Assembly: GCA_028287465.1 (NCBI GenBank)
Contig: JAQBPO010000033.1
Span: 68,688-132,687, forward strand
Direction: 5' to 3'
DNA from: Fibrobacterota bacterium
Lineage (GTDB): Bacteria; Fibrobacterota; Fibrobacteria; UBA11236
Length of the DNA stretch: 64,000 nt
The position numbers and the translations under genes are program-made. The notes below the pieces were generated by a model. It was not told the origin of the DNA and did no database searches. It worked only from the letters and a program-made list of their open reading frames with translations. Within the stretch, counting starts at the first letter, position 1. Every line of letters starts with the position of its first letter. Shown one piece after another: positions 15,688 to 37,415 of the stretch.

Positions 15688-17035
15688 CTGAACCCTCGGT
15701 CAGCACCGCCAACATGCGGGCCGACAATCTCTCCCCTTCGAACTCGGTCATGAAACTCTCGGGCGCCGTTCCGGTCGCGGCACGTCCTTCCGCCGCCTTC
15801 CCGAAAACGGCCGCGAAGGCGGCGGCGCTTTCGGTGCCGTTGAATACGGTGCCCAGGCCATGGCGTTCCAGCAGGGAGGCCGTTTCCGATCCGGGATCCG
15901 CCACGCAGAGGATCTCGGGCCCCGCGAAGACGTATTCGAAAGCCTTGGCCGGGATCTGATCCTGGGTTCCGGACTGGAGCAACAGCAATACGTCCGCCTT
16001 GACCTCTTCGCGCTTGGCCGCCGAAGTGCTCACCTCCCCGACCAATTGCAGCGCTTGGGGAACGCCCGCGGTGGCGAAAGCCTCGATCAAGGGGGCGGGA
16101 TCCATGACCTGCCCCAGGAACCGGAACACGATGGGCCGCGGTCCCTTCCATTGCGCCGCGACCGTGGCGAAGGCCTTGGCCAGGGATGCGGGCATCCGGC
16201 TGGGGTACAACATGCCGATATGGGACACGATGAATTCCGTTTTCACGGCCTGCCCCTGTTCGTCCCGGTACCGTTGCATTTCCTGCATGACTCCGGGTTC
16301 GAATCCGTTGTAGATGGTCCGGATGCGGCCCTCGAGGCCGGGAAAGGCTTCCAGGAAGCCTTTCTCCATCGAGGCGGTATTGGTGATGACGGCCTTTCCG
16401 GAGGCCAGGACCTTGCTTTCCAGGTAGCGGCTGGCGGGATGCCCTTTCCAATAGCGGTTCAAGGTCCAGGGATCGCGGAAATCCAGGAATACGGGAATGC
16501 CCAGCATCCGGCCCGCGATGGCGCCGAGGATCATGGGCGACCAGGGCGGGCCGGTCACGTAGATGGCCTGAGCCTTGCCGCGCGCATGATCCAGCAGGAC
16601 CATGGGAAGGGTGGTCACGATCCAACCCCAGTACGGGTCGGGCACGCCGAACAATTCCATGACCGAGTCCACAAGGCGTCCCGCGAGGCCTTTTCCGGAT
16701 CGCGCGGAATCAGGAGCCGCCGCGACGGGAGCGGATTTCACGGCCGCGGCGGGAGGAACGCCGCCGTTCTTATTCCGCAACCCATCCCGGATCGCGAGCA
16801 GGATCTTGAACCCGTGGAAGGACGGGGTGCGATAGACGCGTACTCCCGCAGGGATCTTCGCGGAAAGGGCGGGATCGATCCCGGAATAATTCTTCAGGCC
16901 CGGCGTCGAAGGATGCACGCAGAAGACGCTGACCTCATGGCCTTGGCGGCGGAAATGCTCCACGAACCGGAGGGGCCTCCGGTAGCCGACCTGGGATACG
17001 GGAGGGAAGAAAAAGGAGACCACCATTATCTTCAT
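15656..17035 (-). CDS. Glycosyltransferase family 4-like
   Basis: The 459-residue GT-B protein begins MKIMVVSFFFPPVSQVGYRRP. The start overlaps the FemAB stop as ATGA (17032-17035). The open frame extends upstream into FemAB but that part is a shadow. An alanine- and proline-rich linker near residues 105-135 (PPAAAVKSAPVAAAP) interrupts the N-terminal domain. ITGPPWSPM-like VTGPPWSPM, FLDFRDPWTLNRYW and IYNGFEP are typical of GT4 enzymes of exopolysaccharide loci. The C-terminal part is less canonical, and the usual EAMA donor loop is replaced by PAKAFEYVFAGPEILCV, which still carries a plausible glutamate. Confidence 0.85.
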   Translation of the reverse strand: MKIMVVSFFFPPVSQVGYRRPLRFVEHFRRQGHEVSVFCVHPSTPGLKNYSGIDPALSAKIPAGVRVYRTPSFHGFKILLAIRDGLRNKNGGVPPAAAVKSAPVAAAPDSARSGKGLAGRLVDSVMELFGVPDPYWGWIVTTLPMVLLDHARGKAQAIYVTGPPWSPMILGAIAGRMLGIPVFLDFRDPWTLNRYWKGHPASRYLESKVLASGKAVITNTASMEKGFLEAFPGLEGRIRTIYNGFEPGVMQEMQRYRDEQGQAVKTEFIVSHIGMLYPSRMPASLAKAFATVAAQWKGPRPIVFRFLGQVMDPAPLIEAFATAGVPQALQLVGEVSTSAAKREEVKADVLLLLQSGTQDQIPAKAFEYVFAGPEILCVADPGSETASLLERHGLGTVFNGTESAAAFAAVFGKAAEGRAATGTAPESFMTEFEGERLSARMLAVLTEGSVRIPSAGARR

Positions 17036-18066
17036 GCCGACAGTTTCCCCCGCAAGGCCGGCCCCAGGCGGTTCGCCACCGCGAGGGGCAGCCGGGCCCA
17101 TACGGTCGCGGCCAGTTTGAGCTTTCCTGAGGCCAGATGCTCCACGTGCGCCTTGGGCTTCCCGCCCGCATCGAACTGGTACCAGCACAAGGGCGCTTCC
17201 CGGGCCTCCCATTGGAGCTTGAACTTGTAGGTCCCCTCCCCTTTGGAGCTCCGGCCGAAATCGATCCGCTCGCAGCCGCGCTCGAAGGCGAAGGCGATGC
17301 TTTCCCAATAGAGGGCGTTGTTGGCGGAATGGATGCGATGCTCCTTGAGCGTCGAGGCCCAGGGAATGTAGAGGGTCTTTTTCCACAGCACGCGGACCAG
17401 GCCCCCGATGCATCGGCCCTGCCTGTGGGCGACGCCGATTTGCGCGCCCGGAAAATGCCTCAGCAGGCTCGCGAAGAGCGTCTTCGAGTGCACCGGGGAG
17501 CCCAGGTCCCGCATGTTCACGGCGAATACGGAATAGAACTCGTCCAGGCATTCCTCCCGGCCCCATTTGACCGTGACCTCGGACTTCTCCGCTTTGCGGA
17601 CCTGGTTGCGCACCTTCGCGTCGAGACCCTTCCAATATCCGTCCTTGCCCTTGCCTTCCAGCTCCAGGACCATGGATACCTTTTCATTGGCGGGTGCGGG
17701 CAGGGATGCCAGGGGCAGGCGGGAACGGAGCTCCAAGGGCATGGCATTGCGCTTGGCCTCCTGCAGCAGGCCGTCCACCAGCCGGAGCTCGCTTTCCGGG
17801 GAGGCGGAAAGGGGGGCCCCGTAATCCAGGAAAGGCATCGAGACGATTTCCCCGCCGGAGAGGAGGCCCTTCAGGCGGAAGGCCGGAGCCACGCCCAGGA
17901 TCCTCCCGGTGGCGGGGTCCCGGTCGGCCAGGTAGAAAGGCCGTAACCCGTAGGTTTCCCGGATGACTTCGCGCCACCCCAGGTCATGGCAATAGTCCGC
18001 TTCCGGAGAGGCTTCCACGAACGCGCGGTAATCCGCTTCCGTGGCCGCCGCGATTTCCTCAGTCAT
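17032..18066 (-). CDS. FemAB-like acyltransferase, PEP-CTERM/exosortase-associated type (copy 1)
   Basis: The 344-residue protein has the tandem GNAT-like fold of FemABX proteins. Recognisable stretches are CHDLGWREVIRETYG near the N-terminus, KVRNQVRKAEKS, VNMRDLGSPVHS, NNALYWESIAFAF and CERIDFGRSS. These match the FemAB-related proteins of exosortase-A loci (TIGR03019). FemAB enzymes form amide bonds using aminoacyl-tRNA; the substrate in exopolysaccharide loci is unknown. It is a close paralogue of the gene at 33151-34248. It is translationally coupled to the downstream GT4, suggesting a shared step. Confidence 0.87.
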   Translation of the reverse strand: MTEEIAAATEADYRAFVEASPEADYCHDLGWREVIRETYGLRPFYLADRDPATGRILGVAPAFRLKGLLSGGEIVSMPFLDYGAPLSASPESELRLVDGLLQEAKRNAMPLELRSRLPLASLPAPANEKVSMVLELEGKGKDGYWKGLDAKVRNQVRKAEKSEVTVKWGREECLDEFYSVFAVNMRDLGSPVHSKTLFASLLRHFPGAQIGVAHRQGRCIGGLVRVLWKKTLYIPWASTLKEHRIHSANNALYWESIAFAFERGCERIDFGRSSKGEGTYKFKLQWEAREAPLCWYQFDAGGKPKAHVEHLASGKLKLAATVWARLPLAVANRLGPALRGKLSA

Positions 18067-30646: not shown

Positions 30647-31849
30647 TTATTTCCCGGTCGATTTGGCGTACCGATCCGCGATTTCCCCGCCGATGGCCAG
30701 GGAGGCCGTAGCCGCGGGGGAAGGCGCGTTGAGCACGTGGAGGCTGCGGGGCCCGTCCGCGAAGGCGAAGTCGTCCACCAGGGAACCGTCGCGACGCAAG
30801 GCCTGGGCCCGCACGCCGGACCCCGCGGGTGTCAGCATGGGCTCGCGCACGTCCGGCAGGAGCCGCTGCAGGGCCTTAACGAAGGCGGCCTTGGAGAAGG
30901 AGCGGTGGAACTCGCCCAGGCCCATGCGCCAGTGGCGGAGCGCGAGCTTGCGGAATCCCGGATTCGCGAACACCTCCGCGGTATCCTTCAGGTTCACGTC
31001 CGATTTACGGTAGCCTTCCCGCTTGAAGGCCAGCACGGCATTGGGTCCGCACTCAACCCCGCCTCCGATCATGCGCGTGAAATGGACGCCCAGGAAGGGG
31101 AAGGCCGGATCGGGGACGGGGTAGATCAGGTTCTTCACCAGACCCCTGGAAGCCGGATCCAGATCGTAATATTCGCCGCGGAAGGGCACGATGGAAACGC
31201 CCGTATCCACGCCGTCCAGGCGCGCCACGCGATCGCTCATGAGGCCGCCGCAATTGATGAAAAAGGACGCTTCGTAATCCGCCTCGCCGGCGCGGGCCAC
31301 CTTCGCGTCCGGGAGGGTGCGCAGGGATTCCACCCGCCGGCTGAGGATGATCTCGCCTCCCAGGGCGCGGATCCGTTCCGCCATCTTTTCCGAAACCTTG
31401 ACGTAATCGACGATGCCGGTCTCGGGCACGTGGAGGGCCTTGAGACCCCCCGCATGGGGCTCGTAGCGGGCGATATCGCCGCGCTCCACCACGGAAACCC
31501 CTTTCAGACCGTTGGCTTCCGCCCTCTGGCGCAGGGTCTCGAGCTGCGGCAGCTCCGCTTCCGTCAGGGCCACGATGATCTTTCCGCAGATGTCATGGGG
31601 CAGATCGTTCGCGCGGCAGAACGCGACCATCTCGGCATAGCCGCGGCGGCACAGCTGCGCCTTGTAGCTCCCCGGTTTGTAATAGATGCCGGAATGGATC
31701 ACGCCGCTATTGTGGCCGGTCTGGTGGCGGGCGACCCCGCCTTCCTTTTCCAGCACCGTGACCTTAAGGCCCGGGAAACGCTCGAGGATGCGCAAGGCCG
31801 TCGCCAGCCCCACTATCCCGCCTCCGGTGATAAGCACGTCCGCCCTCAT
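30647..31849 (-). CDS. lhgO: L-2-hydroxyglutarate oxidase
   Basis: The 400-residue FAD enzyme starts RADVLITGGGIVGLATALRILERFPG, the dinucleotide-binding fold of the DAO family. HQTGHNSGVIHSGIYYKPGSYKAQLC is the diagnostic LhgO block. FINCGGLMSDRVA and FPFLGVHFTRMIGGGVECGPNAV follow. It oxidises L-2-hydroxyglutarate to 2-oxoglutarate, passing electrons to the membrane quinone pool. It lies 22 bp upstream-strand-adjacent to the VanZ-like gene end, so it could be read with the FemAB-VanZ transcript, but no functional link to polysaccharide synthesis is evident. Confidence 0.92.
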   Translation of the reverse strand: MRADVLITGGGIVGLATALRILERFPGLKVTVLEKEGGVARHQTGHNSGVIHSGIYYKPGSYKAQLCRRGYAEMVAFCRANDLPHDICGKIIVALTEAELPQLETLRQRAEANGLKGVSVVERGDIARYEPHAGGLKALHVPETGIVDYVKVSEKMAERIRALGGEIILSRRVESLRTLPDAKVARAGEADYEASFFINCGGLMSDRVARLDGVDTGVSIVPFRGEYYDLDPASRGLVKNLIYPVPDPAFPFLGVHFTRMIGGGVECGPNAVLAFKREGYRKSDVNLKDTAEVFANPGFRKLALRHWRMGLGEFHRSFSKAAFVKALQRLLPDVREPMLTPAGSGVRAQALRRDGSLVDDFAFADGPRSLHVLNAPSPAATASLAIGGEIADRYAKSTGK

Positions 31850-31870: not shown

Positions 31871-33118
31871 CTAGACCTGGCTGTCGTCGTCCCTTGCCAT
31901 GTATTCCCGGAAGGCCGGCCAGCCCCGGGTCAGGGCCAAACCGCCCGCAATGGCGCCCAGCATGGCCCCCAGCACATCGGTAACGTCCGCGTAACGGCCG
32001 GGGACGAAGCCCTGGAGCATCTCCACCCCCATGGCCATGATCCCCGCCAGGAGGCCGGCCAGCGCCGAGGGCCGGATGCGGGGATAGAAATAACCCATCA
32101 GGAAGCCCAAAGGGAAGAAGACCATGGCGCTTTCGATGAAATCGCCCAAGGCGGCGAAGGTGGTCCGTTCGTATTGCGGGAGGAAAAGGATCCAGTTGAA
32201 TCCGGAAAAATGCGGGGTGAAGGTGTAGGGGAAAAGCGCCCGGGCCGCCACGGAGGCCAGGATGGCCAGGCCGCCGGCCAGGAGCCATAAGCGCGGGCGC
32301 CGGTGGAAGCCCGGAAAGAAGAAGCTGATCCCGCCGCCGACCGCGCCGAGAACGGCCACCAAGGCGTCCTGGGCTTCCGGGGAGCGGGATTGGACGAAGA
32401 CCTGGCTCAGCTCCAATGCCACGGCCAGGGACCCCGTGAAGGCCACGCCCCAAAGGACCGGCCGCCGGAAGCCCGTTTCCGCGATCATGCGGCATACGAA
32501 AAGCGTGGTCAGGAGGAAGCGGATGAAGGTGATCAAATCGTCATCGGGATTGGAGAAGCGGATGGGTTCCCGCAACAAAGGCTTGAGGTGCCCCCAGACG
32601 ACGCCAACGTCGAGGCTGAAATCGAAAGGCTGCCAGCAGCCCGCCACCGTCAGGACCAGGAAGATGAATGCCGGAAAAGCCGATTCCGCGTCCAGGAATC
32701 GCCGCGCGGTCGGCTGGGATTTGAATCCGAGCACGGTCCGCTTGAGCGCCATGGCGGCCAAGAGGCCCAGGATGGTCCCGGTGGTATTGGTGATGACGTC
32801 GGAGAGGGAGGGGAAACGCGTGCTCGAGAACAGCTGGAGGATCTCCACGAAGGCGCTCAAGGAGGCGCCGGCCGATACGATGGCGAGCTTCTTCCACGTG
32901 GAGCTTTTGTAGACCAGGGAGAAATAGCCCAGGAACCCGAACGGGAGGAAGAGCAGGACGTTCTGGACGAGATCGGAAATGATGGGATCGCCCGGGCGGC
33001 CGCCCATCGCGAGCCAATTGACGCGATGGATTGCCGCGTGGAAACCGTGCCAGCCGATATCGAAATTGAAGGGAAAGGTGGTGCCGTAGACGACGAAGAT
33101 CGAGAACGACACCCACAA
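31871..33118 (-). CDS. VanZ-family membrane protein with three VanZ-like units
   Basis: About 415 residues with some ten hydrophobic helices. The VanZ signature (LQxF...R...D...N..G...G) occurs three times: LQLFSSTRFPSLSDVITNTTGTILG, ELSQVFVQSRSPEAQDALVAVLGA and MLQGFVPGRYADVTDVLGAMLGA. The start is uncertain. The frame is open to 33262 inside FemAB copy 2 but without a good start; TTG at 33118 or GTG at 33112 fit the beginning of the first helix. Like other VanZ proteins its biochemical role is unknown; VanZ genes are frequent in exosortase-type exopolysaccharide loci. It is probably co-transcribed with FemAB. Confidence 0.8.
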   Translation of the reverse strand: MWVSFSIFVVYGTTFPFNFDIGWHGFHAAIHRVNWLAMGGRPGDPIISDLVQNVLLFLPFGFLGYFSLVYKSSTWKKLAIVSAGASLSAFVEILQLFSSTRFPSLSDVITNTTGTILGLLAAMALKRTVLGFKSQPTARRFLDAESAFPAFIFLVLTVAGCWQPFDFSLDVGVVWGHLKPLLREPIRFSNPDDDLITFIRFLLTTLFVCRMIAETGFRRPVLWGVAFTGSLAVALELSQVFVQSRSPEAQDALVAVLGAVGGGISFFFPGFHRRPRLWLLAGGLAILASVAARALFPYTFTPHFSGFNWILFLPQYERTTFAALGDFIESAMVFFPLGFLMGYFYPRIRPSALAGLLAGIMAMGVEMLQGFVPGRYADVTDVLGAMLGAIAGGLALTRGWPAFREYMARDDDSQV

Positions 33119-33150
33119 GAGGCGCGCCGTGCTCTTGCGCGGCGGCCTGG

Positions 33151-34248
33151 CTACGCTGAGATGCTTCCCCGCAGCATGGGTCCCAGCGAATTCGCCAGCT
33201 TCAGGGGGAGCTTCGCCCAGATGTTCCGGGTCCACCCTAGTTTCCCCTGCGCGACATGCCAAGACTGTTCAAGGAAATGCCCTTTCTCATCGAATTGATA
33301 ACGATACAAAGGTAATTCCCGGGCCTGCCATTGTTTTTTGAACCGATAGGTCCCTTCGTCCCGGGTGCTGCGGCCGAAATCAACCAGGCGGCACCCCGCT
33401 TCGAAGGCGAAACGGATGCTTTCCCAATAAAGGGCGTTGTTGGGGCAATGGATGCGCTCATCCTTGAGCGTCGAGGCCCAGGGAATGGCCAGTTCGTTCT
33501 TCCACAGGATGCGGAACAGCCCGCCTATGCATTTGCCCTCGCGATGGGCCGTGCCGATCCGGGCCCCGGGGAAATGGCGCAGCACCGCCTCGAAGAATCC
33601 GCGCGCATGGGTGGGCGATCCCAGATCGCGCATGTTCACGCAGAATACCTCGTAGAAATCGTCCAGGCGATCCTCGCGGCCCCAGACCACGGTCACGCCG
33701 GATTTTTCCGCCTTGCGCACCTGGTTCCGCACCTTGGCGTCCAGGCCCTTCCAATAGCCGTCCGCGTTCAGGGAATCGACCGGCCCCGGGTCGGCGACGC
33801 CTCGCCAGTCCCCGCCTTGCGAGTGGATGTCCCTTTCGGACAAGGGCAGGATCATGGAAACCTTGTCGTCCTTTGGGGTGGGCAGGCCACACAGGGGATC
33901 GCGGCTGCGGATCTCGAGTTGGGCGCGGCGCGCCTGCGCTTCCGCCACCAGCTTGTCCCTGAGGAGGTCCTCGGTTTCGGAATCCTCGGCCAGGATGCCG
34001 CCGTAGTCCAGGTAGGGCAGGCAGACCAGGTTCTTCCCGAAGGCGGCGGAGGCCAGGAAACAGGCGGGAGCCATCCCCTTAACGGCGCCGGTATCGGGGT
34101 CCGTGCGGACGAAGGCGAAAGCCTCCTTGTCGTAGGCTTCCTTGATCACCTTCATCCAGGCGGGGTCATGGCAATAATTGGCTTGGGGGGAATTCCCGAG
34201 AAACTCCCGGCAAGCCTGTTCCAGGCCCGGGTCGAATAGGCGGATCAT
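33151..34248 (-). CDS. FemAB-like acyltransferase, PEP-CTERM/exosortase-associated type (copy 2)
   Basis: The 365-residue paralogue of the 17032-18066 protein shares the same blocks: CHDPAWMKVIKEAY, KVRNQVRKAEKSG, VNMRDLGSPTHA, NNALYWESIRFAF, DFGRSTRDEGTYRFK. Compared with copy 1 it carries roughly 20 extra residues (SQGGDWRGVADPGPVDSL) just before YWKGLDAK. DNA similarity is high, including an identical 27-nt run (17342-17368 versus 33461-33487), indicating recent duplication or gene conversion. It precedes the VanZ-like gene, with which it may overlap. Expected to form an amide bond on a glycan or lipid precursor. Confidence 0.87.
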   Translation of the reverse strand: MIRLFDPGLEQACREFLGNSPQANYCHDPAWMKVIKEAYDKEAFAFVRTDPDTGAVKGMAPACFLASAAFGKNLVCLPYLDYGGILAEDSETEDLLRDKLVAEAQARRAQLEIRSRDPLCGLPTPKDDKVSMILPLSERDIHSQGGDWRGVADPGPVDSLNADGYWKGLDAKVRNQVRKAEKSGVTVVWGREDRLDDFYEVFCVNMRDLGSPTHARGFFEAVLRHFPGARIGTAHREGKCIGGLFRILWKNELAIPWASTLKDERIHCPNNALYWESIRFAFEAGCRLVDFGRSTRDEGTYRFKKQWQARELPLYRYQFDEKGHFLEQSWHVAQGKLGWTRNIWAKLPLKLANSLGPMLRGSISA

Positions 34249-34387
34249 GACGGGTTCTCCTCGCGGGTGCGGCGGATGTCCAAGGCTTCAGGTCTGAAGA
34301 TAGATTCTGGCGGCGGTGAGGCAAATTATCCGTCGCGCGGGAAGCGGAAAACCTTCCAAGGACCTGGGCGGCGCGCTTCGGGGGAAA

Positions 34388-35272
34388 TCAGAGGCCGAGC
34401 AGGATCACGCCCGCGGCCACGTACAGGGCGCAAATGGCCAGCAACGCGGGATCCCTGGGAACGTCCGCCACGGTGTTCTCCCCGAAGCCCTTTTCCATCA
34501 CCAGGTAGAGATAGCGGAACAATCCGAACATGGCGATGGGAAGGGTATAGATGAGCCGCGTGCTCCCGTGCACTTCCAGGGTCCGCGGGCTGGTGGTATA
34601 GAGCCCGTAGGTGATCAAGGTGGCGGACAGGGTGATGGCCAGGAGCATGCGCAGGAATTCCGGGGAATAGCTCTTGAGCACGGCGCGCTTCTCCGCCAAC
34701 GGCCTTTCCCCGTCCATGAGTTCGGCGTACCGTTTCGAGAAGCCCAGGAACAGGCTGAGGTTCATGGTGCACAGGATGAACCACTGGGAAGGCTCCACGC
34801 CGATGCCCCAAGTGCCCGCCAGCAGGCGGATGATGAATCCGGACGCGATGCAGAAGACGTCGATCAGCACCATGGATTTGAGGATGCGCGAGTAAAGCAC
34901 GTTGACGGCGGCGTAGGCCGCCAGGCATGCGGAAAGCCGGGGGCCCGCGTAGAGGCTGATGGTCAGCGCGCCCGCGCCCAGGGCCGCGGCCAAGGCGTAG
35001 GCCGCGTAGGAGGATACCTCGCCGGAGGCGATGGGCCGCGTCCGCTTGCGCGGATGGGCGCGATCCGCTTCGACGTCCATGGCGTCGTTCACGCAATACA
35101 CGGCGCTGGCGGCCAGGCAGAAGGCGGCGAAGGCGGAGACGGCCAGCAGCAGCATCCCGGGACGGGTCCAGTCCTCGGCGAAAACCACCCCCGCCAGCAC
35201 GAACACGTTCTTGATCCAATGCGCGGGGCGCATGAGCCCCAGCAAGGCGCGCGTCCGGCCCCGGGTGCTCAC
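34388..35272 (-). CDS. UbiA-family polyprenyl-phosphate phosphoribosyltransferase (Rv3806c-like)
   Basis: The 294-residue protein has about eight membrane helices and starts at GTG, overlapping the DprE2-like stop as GTGA (35269-35272). LMRPAHWIKNVFVLAGVVFA, YCVNDAMDVEADRAHPRKRTRPIASG (first Asp-rich NDxxDxxxD site) and YSRILKSMVLIDVFCIASGFIIR match decaprenyl-phosphate 5-phosphoribosyltransferase rather than quinone-pathway UbiA. It would transfer phosphoribose from PRPP to polyprenyl phosphate. With the next two genes it forms a complete-looking arm of lipid-linked arabinofuranose synthesis, lacking only a visible phosphatase. Confidence 0.87.
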   Translation of the reverse strand: MSTRGRTRALLGLMRPAHWIKNVFVLAGVVFAEDWTRPGMLLLAVSAFAAFCLAASAVYCVNDAMDVEADRAHPRKRTRPIASGEVSSYAAYALAAALGAGALTISLYAGPRLSACLAAYAAVNVLYSRILKSMVLIDVFCIASGFIIRLLAGTWGIGVEPSQWFILCTMNLSLFLGFSKRYAELMDGERPLAEKRAVLKSYSPEFLRMLLAITLSATLITYGLYTTSPRTLEVHGSTRLIYTLPIAMFGLFRYLYLVMEKGFGENTVADVPRDPALLAICALYVAAGVILLGL

Positions 35273-36027
35273 AGCTTCATCCTCCGGAAGACGGGCGAGG
35301 GGATCCAGCGGATGATCAGCATGATCCATCTCCAGATCCCCGGCGTATAGAGGACCTCGCGCCGCTTGCGCAGGGCGGAGACTATCTCCTGGGCCACCTT
35401 TTCCGGCTCCGCCATCAGGCGGCTCTCCACGCCCTTGGTCATGCGCGTGCGGACGAACCCGGGCTTCACGGTCTGCACGAATACGCCGGTCCCGACCAGG
35501 CGGTGGCGCAGGCCCGCCAGGTAGGCGGAGAGCCCGGCCTTGGCGGCGGCGTAGGCCAGCACCTTGCCGCGGCCGCGATCGCCCGCCACGGAGGACACGC
35601 AGCTGATCCAGCCGGAACCGCGCCGCCGGAAATGGCCCGCGAACAGGTCCAGGATCATGGCCGGCCCGGTCAGGTTGGTTTCGATGGTGAGCCTGGTCTT
35701 GTCCGGATCCCGGTCGCATTCATCCTGCGGGAACAGGATTCCCGCGGCGAAGAATACCCCTTGGATCCCGCCTTCGCGCGCGGCCGGCATCGCTTCGAGT
35801 TGGCGGAACCGGTCCGCATGCCCGGCGAAATCAAGCACGTCCCAGGCCAGGCATGCGGGCTTGCGGCCATGCGCGGACTCCAGGGCCCGCGCCTGGGCTT
35901 CAAGGGCCGCGCCGTCGCGCCCGATCAGGATCAGGGCCTCGCCCAGGGACGCCAGCCGCGCCGCGACCGCCGAGGCGATGCCGGACGTCGCGCCGAAGAG
36001 GACGATCCGGCCTTTCAGGTTTTCCAA
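35269..36027 (-). CDS. dprE2: DprE2-like SDR, polyprenyl-phosphoryl-2-keto-ribose reductase
   Basis: The 252-residue short-chain dehydrogenase has IVLFGATSGIASAVAARLA (cofactor loop), ISCVSSVAGDRGRG with the catalytic serine, and YAAAKAGLSAYLAGLRHRL with the Tyr-x-x-x-Lys pair. FVQTVKPGFVRTRMT follows. Size, sequence style and position between the UbiA-like and DprE1-like genes identify it as DprE2, which reduces the 2-keto intermediate to polyprenyl-phosphoryl-arabinose using NADH. The start overlaps the DprE1 end by 13 bp, so the two are coupled. Placement as DprE2 rests on the operon as much as on motifs. Confidence 0.87.
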   Translation of the reverse strand: MENLKGRIVLFGATSGIASAVAARLASLGEALILIGRDGAALEAQARALESAHGRKPACLAWDVLDFAGHADRFRQLEAMPAAREGGIQGVFFAAGILFPQDECDRDPDKTRLTIETNLTGPAMILDLFAGHFRRRGSGWISCVSSVAGDRGRGKVLAYAAAKAGLSAYLAGLRHRLVGTGVFVQTVKPGFVRTRMTKGVESRLMAEPEKVAQEIVSALRKRREVLYTPGIWRWIMLIIRWIPSPVFRRMKL

Positions 36028-37415
36028 AGTTCCAGCCTTTCCGCCAGGCGGGAATTGCTCTTGGCCTCGGGATTGTAACGGCGTACGGTTTCCATCCAGG
36101 CCCGGCTTTCGGGATACATGGCCCGGAAGGCTTCCGGTCTAAGGCGCGCGTCCTTGGTCAGGTACACCCTGCCGCCGAAGGAGATGACCAGGTCGTCCAG
36201 GCGGTCCAGTAACCGCAAGGTTTCCTGTCCCCGGAAGGGGATGTCCAGGGCCAGGGTATAGCCGCGCTTGCAGAAGGGAAGCATCACCCTATCGTCCCCG
36301 CAGCGCTTGAGCACGGAGAGGAAGGCCCCGAGCCCGTTCCCGCTCAGGAAGTCCAGGGCGGCGGCGATGCCGTCCTCGCCGCGCGGATCGGGGATCATGC
36401 ACTGGTATTGGAAAAATCCCTTGCGGCCGTAGAGTAGGTTCCAATCGCCGATCCGGTCCAGGGGATAGAAGAAGCCCTCGAATCCCTCGCGGGATTTCCC
36501 GCCCGCGCCTCCCCGGGAAAGCCGATAGAAGACTTCATTGAACGCGGACAGGAAAGGGCGGTTGAGCAGGGCTCCGGGCAAGGTGAAGGGGACCTTGAGC
36601 CGGCGCTTGTCGCGATAAGCCAGGTTGGCGGCCTTATCCGTTCCCGGCGCACCGGACCCTCCTTGGGCCGCCATGCCCGCGCTGCCTGCGGTTCCCGCCG
36701 CCTTGGAAGGCAGGGCATGGTTGCCCAGCATCAGCACCCCGCGCCCCATGGATCGGCCCCGGGCCAGGGTATCCAGCCAGGCCACGGAATATTCATAGTC
36801 CGCATCGTGCTTGGAAAGCAGGGCGAACAGGGAGTCGAGGCCCGGAGCGCGCACGCGCAGGCATTCCACCTGGGCGGTCTCCACCGGCTTGAGGCGCAGC
36901 TTGGCGCGCGTGATGAAGCCCGTCAGGCCATAGCCGCCCACGGTGGCGCGGAACAGGTCCGGATGGACGGCCGGAGAGCAGATCAGGGTGCCCATCGGAG
37001 TGGCCACTTCCAGTTCGAGGATGAAATGCTCCAGGGATCCGGAATGATGGTGGTTCTTGCCATGCACGTTGCTGGCGATGGCGCCGCCCAGGCTCACGAA
37101 CATGGTTCCGGGGGTGACCGGCAGGAAGAATCCGCGGGGCAAGGCGATGCGCAGGATGGCCTGGAAGGTGACCCCGGCCTCCGCATCCATGACGCCGGAA
37201 TAGGGATTGAAGGAAAGGAACCTATCAAGCCGGTAGGAATTGATGGCGAGATGGCCGGCGGCCGGAAGGCCGGCGTCCCCATAGCTGCGCCCCTGGCCGC
37301 GCGGGAGGTACGCGCGCCCGGTCAGGGAAGGGATGCGCCCCAGGGATTCGGGCGCGTCCTCTTCCGCCGTTACGATCGGGTAACGGCCCCAACCGGAAAG
37401 CGCATTAGTCGGCAT
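36015..37415 (-). CDS. dprE1: DprE1-like FAD oxidase, polyprenyl-phosphoryl-ribose 2-epimerase subunit
   Basis: The 466-residue FAD enzyme has RGQGRSYGDAG and GTMFVSLGGAIASNVHGKNHHHSG, the FAD-binding half of the vanillyl-alcohol-oxidase fold, in the exact style of DprE1. The C-terminal half ends with FGGRVYLTKDAR, containing the Lys (here 421) equivalent to catalytic Lys418 of the mycobacterial enzyme. The residue matching Cys387, the benzothiazinone target, is Ala389 in GYTLALDIPF. It oxidises polyprenyl-phosphoryl-ribose at C-2. It is first in a three-gene coupled operon. Known DprE1 acts at the inner membrane or periplasm; no signal peptide is visible. Confidence 0.92.
   Translation of the reverse strand: MPTNALSGWGRYPIVTAEEDAPESLGRIPSLTGRAYLPRGQGRSYGDAGLPAAGHLAINSYRLDRFLSFNPYSGVMDAEAGVTFQAILRIALPRGFFLPVTPGTMFVSLGGAIASNVHGKNHHHSGSLEHFILELEVATPMGTLICSPAVHPDLFRATVGGYGLTGFITRAKLRLKPVETAQVECLRVRAPGLDSLFALLSKHDADYEYSVAWLDTLARGRSMGRGVLMLGNHALPSKAAGTAGSAGMAAQGGSGAPGTDKAANLAYRDKRRLKVPFTLPGALLNRPFLSAFNEVFYRLSRGGAGGKSREGFEGFFYPLDRIGDWNLLYGRKGFFQYQCMIPDPRGEDGIAAALDFLSGNGLGAFLSVLKRCGDDRVMLPFCKRGYTLALDIPFRGQETLRLLDRLDDLVISFGGRVYLTKDARLRPEAFRAMYPESRAWMETVRRYNPEAKSNSRLAERLELWKT

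Follow-up and report, generated by a model that had tools for sequence, protein, structure and literature searches.

The DNA stretch analyzed here (64,000 nucleotides in its entirety, hereafter the window) is part of contig C13 of the 5.8-Mb draft genome G000, which represents an uncultured Fibrobacterota family and has Fibrobacterota genomes of metagenomic origin as its closest named relatives. Its minus strand carries three overlapping genes, which are transcribed in the order DprE1, DprE2, and UbiA and whose coordinates are collected in Table 1 together with those of the adjoining genes. The coordinates, the strand, and both overlaps of the three open reading frames match those of the original prediction, and the gene coupling proposed there is borne out by the overlaps. 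Chance open reading frames are ruled out by the Pfam matches (UbiA, 2.9e-24; adh_short, 2.5e-27; FAD_binding_4, 6.8e-18), and the NCBIfam E-values of the trio are 4.4e-79 for DPPRS, 5.6e-101 for DprE1, and 5.3e-46 for DprE2.

Table 1. Genes and overlaps of the module and its adjoining region (positions in the window)
Feature	Position	Strand	Remarks
DprE1-type FAD oxidase (polyprenyl-phospho-ribose 2'-oxidase)	36015..37415	-	466 aa, ATG start; first gene of the unit
DprE1/DprE2 overlap	36015..36027	-	13 bp
DprE2-type SDR reductase	35269..36027	-	252 aa, TTG start
DprE2 stop/UbiA start overlap	35269..35272	-	GTGA, 4 bp
UbiA-superfamily polyprenyl-phosphate phosphoribosyltransferase (DPPRS/PPPRS)	34388..35272	-	294 aa, GTG start
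FemAB-like transferase (XrtA/PEP-CTERM-associated type)	33151..34248	-	TIGR03019, 214.6 bits (cut-off 260.35)
Membrane protein with two VanZ domains	31871..33235	-	Pfam VanZ, 2.9e-32, two stretches
L-2-hydroxyglutarate oxidase	30647..31849	-	NF008726, 546.9, above the cut-off of 299; conserved neighbor

Genomic surroundings of the module

The FemAB-like gene is found at the same place in most, not all, members of the genus. A simple pattern scan of the gap between it and the UbiA gene (34249-34387, minus strand) revealed no terminator-like site, and the FemAB-like gene is possibly co-transcribed with the trio. The start of the tandem VanZ gene is uncertain, being either the GTG at 33235 or a later non-standard start. 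Within the genus, this gene is located either after the FemAB-like gene or directly after UbiA, the latter in G001 and G003, where no FemAB-like gene lies between. The function of the L-2-hydroxyglutarate oxidase is probably unrelated to the module.

In the genus, the module is flanked on one side by genes for Mrp, a sigma factor, a TPR protein, an SDR, a superoxide dismutase, and a cytochrome c, and on the other side, with some variation, by those for the FemAB-like protein, the tandem VanZ protein, and the L-2-hydroxyglutarate oxidase, while different neighbors are found in the sister genus. Because the flanking genes are conserved across the genus and partly have housekeeping roles, the module cannot be regarded merely as a component of a variable exopolysaccharide cluster. 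Further out, on both sides in the window, there are glycan genes (GT2, GT4, Wzy, MBOAT, epimerases, Wza, and Wzx), and an EPS-type glycosylphosphotransferase is encoded on the same contig. The placement of the trio in a polysaccharide locus, as originally described, is not supported: the immediate neighbors in the genus constitute a conserved chromosomal site.

Contig C13 also encodes an exosortase (L109:3391-4275 (+), equivalent to G000:C13:43391-44275), which scores 146.6 bits against TIGR02602 (cut-off 105.55), and the window contains two XrtA-type FemAB-like genes, at 17032-18066 and 33151-34248. Judged from their sequences, these three genes would point to an exosortase-linked glycan system in the genome.

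Identity of the three enzymes

The UbiA protein reaches equivalog level in NCBIfam, with 266 bits against NF008977 (decaprenyl-phosphate phosphoribosyltransferase, cut-off 234) and 223.4 bits against NF008978 (cut-off 207), compared to 17-39 bits against the named quinone and heme models. Its best match among solved structures is the mycobacterial DPPRS (8j8j, 8.3e-38). The N62-D63-x-x-D66-x-x-x-D70 motif (NDxxDxxxD) and R181 of loop IV are invariant in the cross-phylum alignment, and E184 is present in the window protein, which is the only DPPRS-type match in its own genome. In the phylogenetic tree, the protein groups with DPPRS-type proteins, the nearest group being formed by actinobacterial proteins (92/82), and is separated (98/93) from six of the seven further UbiA genes that its genome contains. 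With a branch length of 9.6 changes per column, the remaining one, L008, cannot be placed, and its position inside the DPPRS clade is without meaning. The tree, in which all outgroup branches are long, supports a separation from the other UbiA families, short of proof, and the family scores are the firmer evidence.

A quinone or heme prenyltransferase that adjoins two oxidoreductases by accident would have the Pfam UbiA domain in common with the window protein, and other UbiA-family genes do occur in the genome. However, a quinone UbiA is ruled out by the family scores and by the grouping with DPPRS-type proteins in the tree, and an accidental adjacency by the linkage of UbiA to DprE1 and DprE2, which is conserved in many phyla. 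We therefore regard the probability of this alternative as practically negligible. The original assignment of UbiA as a DPPRS, rather than a member of the quinone-pathway group, was thus confirmed by profile search, through the NCBIfam score, and by phylogeny.

For the oxidase, the best NCBIfam model is DprE1 with 338.9 bits, below the equivalog cut-off of 500, and two homologues from other Gram-negative loci also score below this value (338.7 and 388.9). The two best models for the reductase, PRK07102 (248.2, cut-off 267) and DprE2 (157.3, cut-off 250), likewise remain below their cut-offs. Since these equivalog cut-offs are thresholds for naming, the designations DprE1-type and DprE2-type are used for the two proteins, and an identical substrate is not guaranteed by the scores.

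Among solved structures, the best match of the oxidase is mycobacterial DprE1 (2.6e-66), and that of the reductase is mycobacterial DprE2 (21gq chain C, 2.2e-26), followed by the next SDR at 1.4e-14. A quick tree with four other SDRs as the outgroup also places the window SDR with DprE2. The alignment with mycobacterial DprE1 shows that the GRSYGD and HGKNHH motifs and the substrate-site lysine are present in the window protein, in which H118-G-K120-N-H-H and K421, invariant across phyla, correspond to HGKNHH and KD, respectively, of the mycobacterial enzyme. Both assignments made in the original prediction are therefore upheld by the closest solved structures and, in the case of DprE1, by the aligned motifs.

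In contrast to mycobacterial DprE1, the window protein has an alanine, in the segment GYTLALDIP, at the position of the benzothiazinone-reactive cysteine, which we take to be Cys387 in the M. tuberculosis numbering. This cysteine is absent from every non-mycobacterial row of the alignment.

The scores below the equivalog cut-offs could be taken to mean that the DprE1/DprE2 pair works on a polyprenyl-phosphate pentose but delivers an end sugar other than arabinofuranose, especially as, according to Kelly et al. (PMC11127046), it depends on the epimerase alone which pentofuranose is formed. However, in the xylofuranose systems of that study this part is played by a GalE-like SDR, DprE1/E2 homologues accompany Araf-containing glycans (PMC11127046), and the catalytic residues match those of mycobacterial DprE1, which makes a different end sugar improbable. 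The enzyme identities support polyprenyl-phosphate arabinofuranose as the product class, as predicted. The presence of the reductase means that there is no specific prediction of the 2-keto-ribose-derived sugars that had been put forward along with it.

Occurrence in other bacteria

A scan of genome contigs for DprE1 identified at least 39 loci in about 11 phyla, namely, Fibrobacterota, Myxococcota, Acidobacteriota, Bacteroidota, Planctomycetota, Armatimonadota, Campylobacterota, Actinomycetota, Pseudomonadota, Cloacimonadota, and Parcubacteria, the count being a lower bound since the scan was queried with peptides of the window protein. DprE2 is found within the flanks in 35 of the 39 loci, some of which are cut by contig ends, and lies directly downstream of DprE1 in 29; all three genes are within the flanks in 25.

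Gram-negative systems have also been published. Kelly et al. 2024 described a Gram-negative pathway and the occurrence of DprE1/E2 homologues in Araf systems (PMC11127046), and the pilins of Pseudomonas paraeruginosa carry D-Araf that originates from an equivalent gene set and is added by TfpW (PMC12369383). The spread over many phyla, with 25 complete trios, and these published systems show that the compact module is no actinobacterial peculiarity, contrary to the suggestion that it is uncommon outside Actinobacteria. The noeCHOP genes, responsible for Nod-factor arabinosylation in Azorhizobium, constitute a further Gram-negative precedent. The trio of the window is hence a sound further example of a known pathway and not a surprising one.

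Within the phylum, a search of 61 related genomes, using UbiA alone as the query and E-values up to 1e-40, detected this UbiA family in 10 of 10 genomes of the same family (six belonging to the genus and four to the sister genus), as compared to 2 of the remaining 51. Nine of the 10 genomes of the family have DprE1 adjoining UbiA, and in G008 the two are separated by about 9 kb. The two positive genomes that do not belong to the family differ from each other: G054 encodes DprE1, DprE2, and a UbiA fused to a HAD domain, and in G045 no DprE1 or DprE2 match was found in 16 kb. The trees of UbiA, DprE1, and DprE2 each contain a Fibrobacterota cluster that includes the window protein, which would fit inheritance within the family.

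In the genus member G004 (L080:8902-11234 (+)), UbiA directly follows DprE1 with no DprE2 between them, and tblastn of 20 kb at the locus detected no DprE2 match. To judge from this arrangement, the reductase would be either encoded elsewhere or replaced in that genome.

Proposed pathway, missing steps, and acceptor

On the basis of the gene order, the enzyme families, their catalytic residues, and their conservation, we infer, with a probability of about 0.8, that the products of this translationally coupled operon synthesize a lipid-linked arabinofuranose donor, which is used in periplasmic or surface glycosylation. According to their homology and conserved residues, UbiA would join PRPP and polyprenyl phosphate and, after removal of the 5'-phosphate by a phosphatase presumably encoded elsewhere, DprE1 would oxidize C2 of the ribofuranose. 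DprE2, by homology, would then reduce C2 with inversion to give polyprenyl-phosphate D-arabinofuranose. By analogy with the published systems, on which the phosphatase step is also modeled, the donor would be flipped out of the cytoplasm, and a GT-C-type transferase would transfer the arabinofuranose onto a glycan or glycoprotein in the periplasm or at the cell surface.

The three enzyme families, the catalytic residues, and the adjacency of DprE1 and DprE2 are shared with the mycobacterial decaprenyl-phosphate arabinose pathway (Rv3806c DPPRS, DprE1, and DprE2). In contrast to the latter, UbiA overlaps DprE2 in one coupled unit in the window, no Emb/Aft-type transferase is found near the module, and the lipid is presumably undecaprenyl rather than decaprenyl. 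The three-component pentofuranose system of Citrobacter youngae O1/O2 (PMC11127046), also Gram-negative, has in common with the window module a UbiA-family PPPRS and epimerization on the lipid, and its Araf variants carry DprE1/E2 homologues as well. However, the C. youngae system has a HAD phosphatase domain fused to UbiA as well as a flippase and GT136 in the cluster, none of which adjoins the module of the window.

The statement in the original prediction that neither a phosphatase nor a GT-C arabinosyltransferase adjoins the trio is correct. A free-standing HAD phosphatase is located by the module in several Bacteroidota loci, and UbiA carries a fused HAD domain in some proteobacterial loci, as in G054. 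A profile of the free-standing form gave one significant match in the genome of the window, a HAD protein at G000:C13:167687-168685 that scores 43 bits and is encoded at a distance of about 62-63 kb from the module. Homologues of this protein are present in nine of the 10 family genomes and in none of the 18 sampled genomes of family f3, and a third family contributes two genomes, G012 and G014, that have a homologue but no UbiA match. Given its membership in the broad HAD-IB subfamily, the protein is no more than a weak candidate for the phosphatase of the module.

Two fused arrangements directly at other loci may be mentioned here. In Lewinella cohaerens (L055:9978-12020 (+)), a HAD phosphatase domain is joined to an O-antigen-ligase-like domain (Wzy_C) in a gene directly after DprE2. 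At L083:12728-15082 (+), an open frame after DprE2 combines a 5-formyltetrahydrofolate cyclo-ligase domain with an 11-helix membrane region having a weak DUF2142 match, which may represent a fused transferase or be an effect of the assembly.

With regard to the flippase, no match to the GtrA family was obtained anywhere in the genome. We have also considered the tandem VanZ protein as the missing flippase or transferase in this Fibrobacterota genus. Its predicted structure has a mean pLDDT of 56.8, too low for a fold search, and a literature search found no paper on a link between VanZ, FemAB, and exopolysaccharide or between VanZ and a flippase; we see very little chance of this assignment being right. 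If it were, the VanZ family would gain a role in the handling of polyprenyl-phosphate pentofuranose. The HAD phosphatase and the tandem VanZ protein are flagged as candidates for missing steps.

GT-C candidates are present elsewhere in the genome, including a GT87-like protein on contig C89, and none of them is linked to the module, nor is any known to be inherited together with it. A simple hydrophobicity scan of contig C13, which can miss some proteins, revealed no obvious unassigned GT-C-like protein. Three further proteins were considered as the transferase and rejected: the 9-TM protein encoded divergently to UbiA in G008, for which the only matches among the 61 genomes are itself and one short broken one; a PMT_2 protein of the window's own genome, which was not found in 30 relatives; and an 8-TM protein near the G004 module, which the other members of the genus lack.

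As for the acceptor, a polysaccharide is somewhat favored by the genomic setting, and a protein is a real alternative. The same donor pathway could serve a protein at the cell surface, for instance a type IV pilin, as in the P. paraeruginosa D-Araf pilin pathway (PSPA7_6245-6251; PMC12369383), a Gram-negative system with a comparable gene set, including ubiA, for alpha-1,5-D-Araf; that the module is not embedded in a variable glycan cluster would agree with such an acceptor. The P. paraeruginosa genes are located on a genomic island and serve TfpW, and no pilin cassette is seen adjoining the module of the window. The glycan assembly genes on both sides in the window and the exosortase and the EPS-type glycosylphosphotransferase on the same contig speak against a surface protein as the acceptor, which we regard as the less likely reading.

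The lipid-linked arabinose pathway is well understood, and its mycobacterial form is a major tuberculosis drug target. The polysaccharide-directed and protein-directed readings alike predict that arabinofuranose would occur in surface glycans or glycoproteins of this uncultured Fibrobacterota family. The main interest of the module lies in its being, apparently, a lineage-wide trait of that family.
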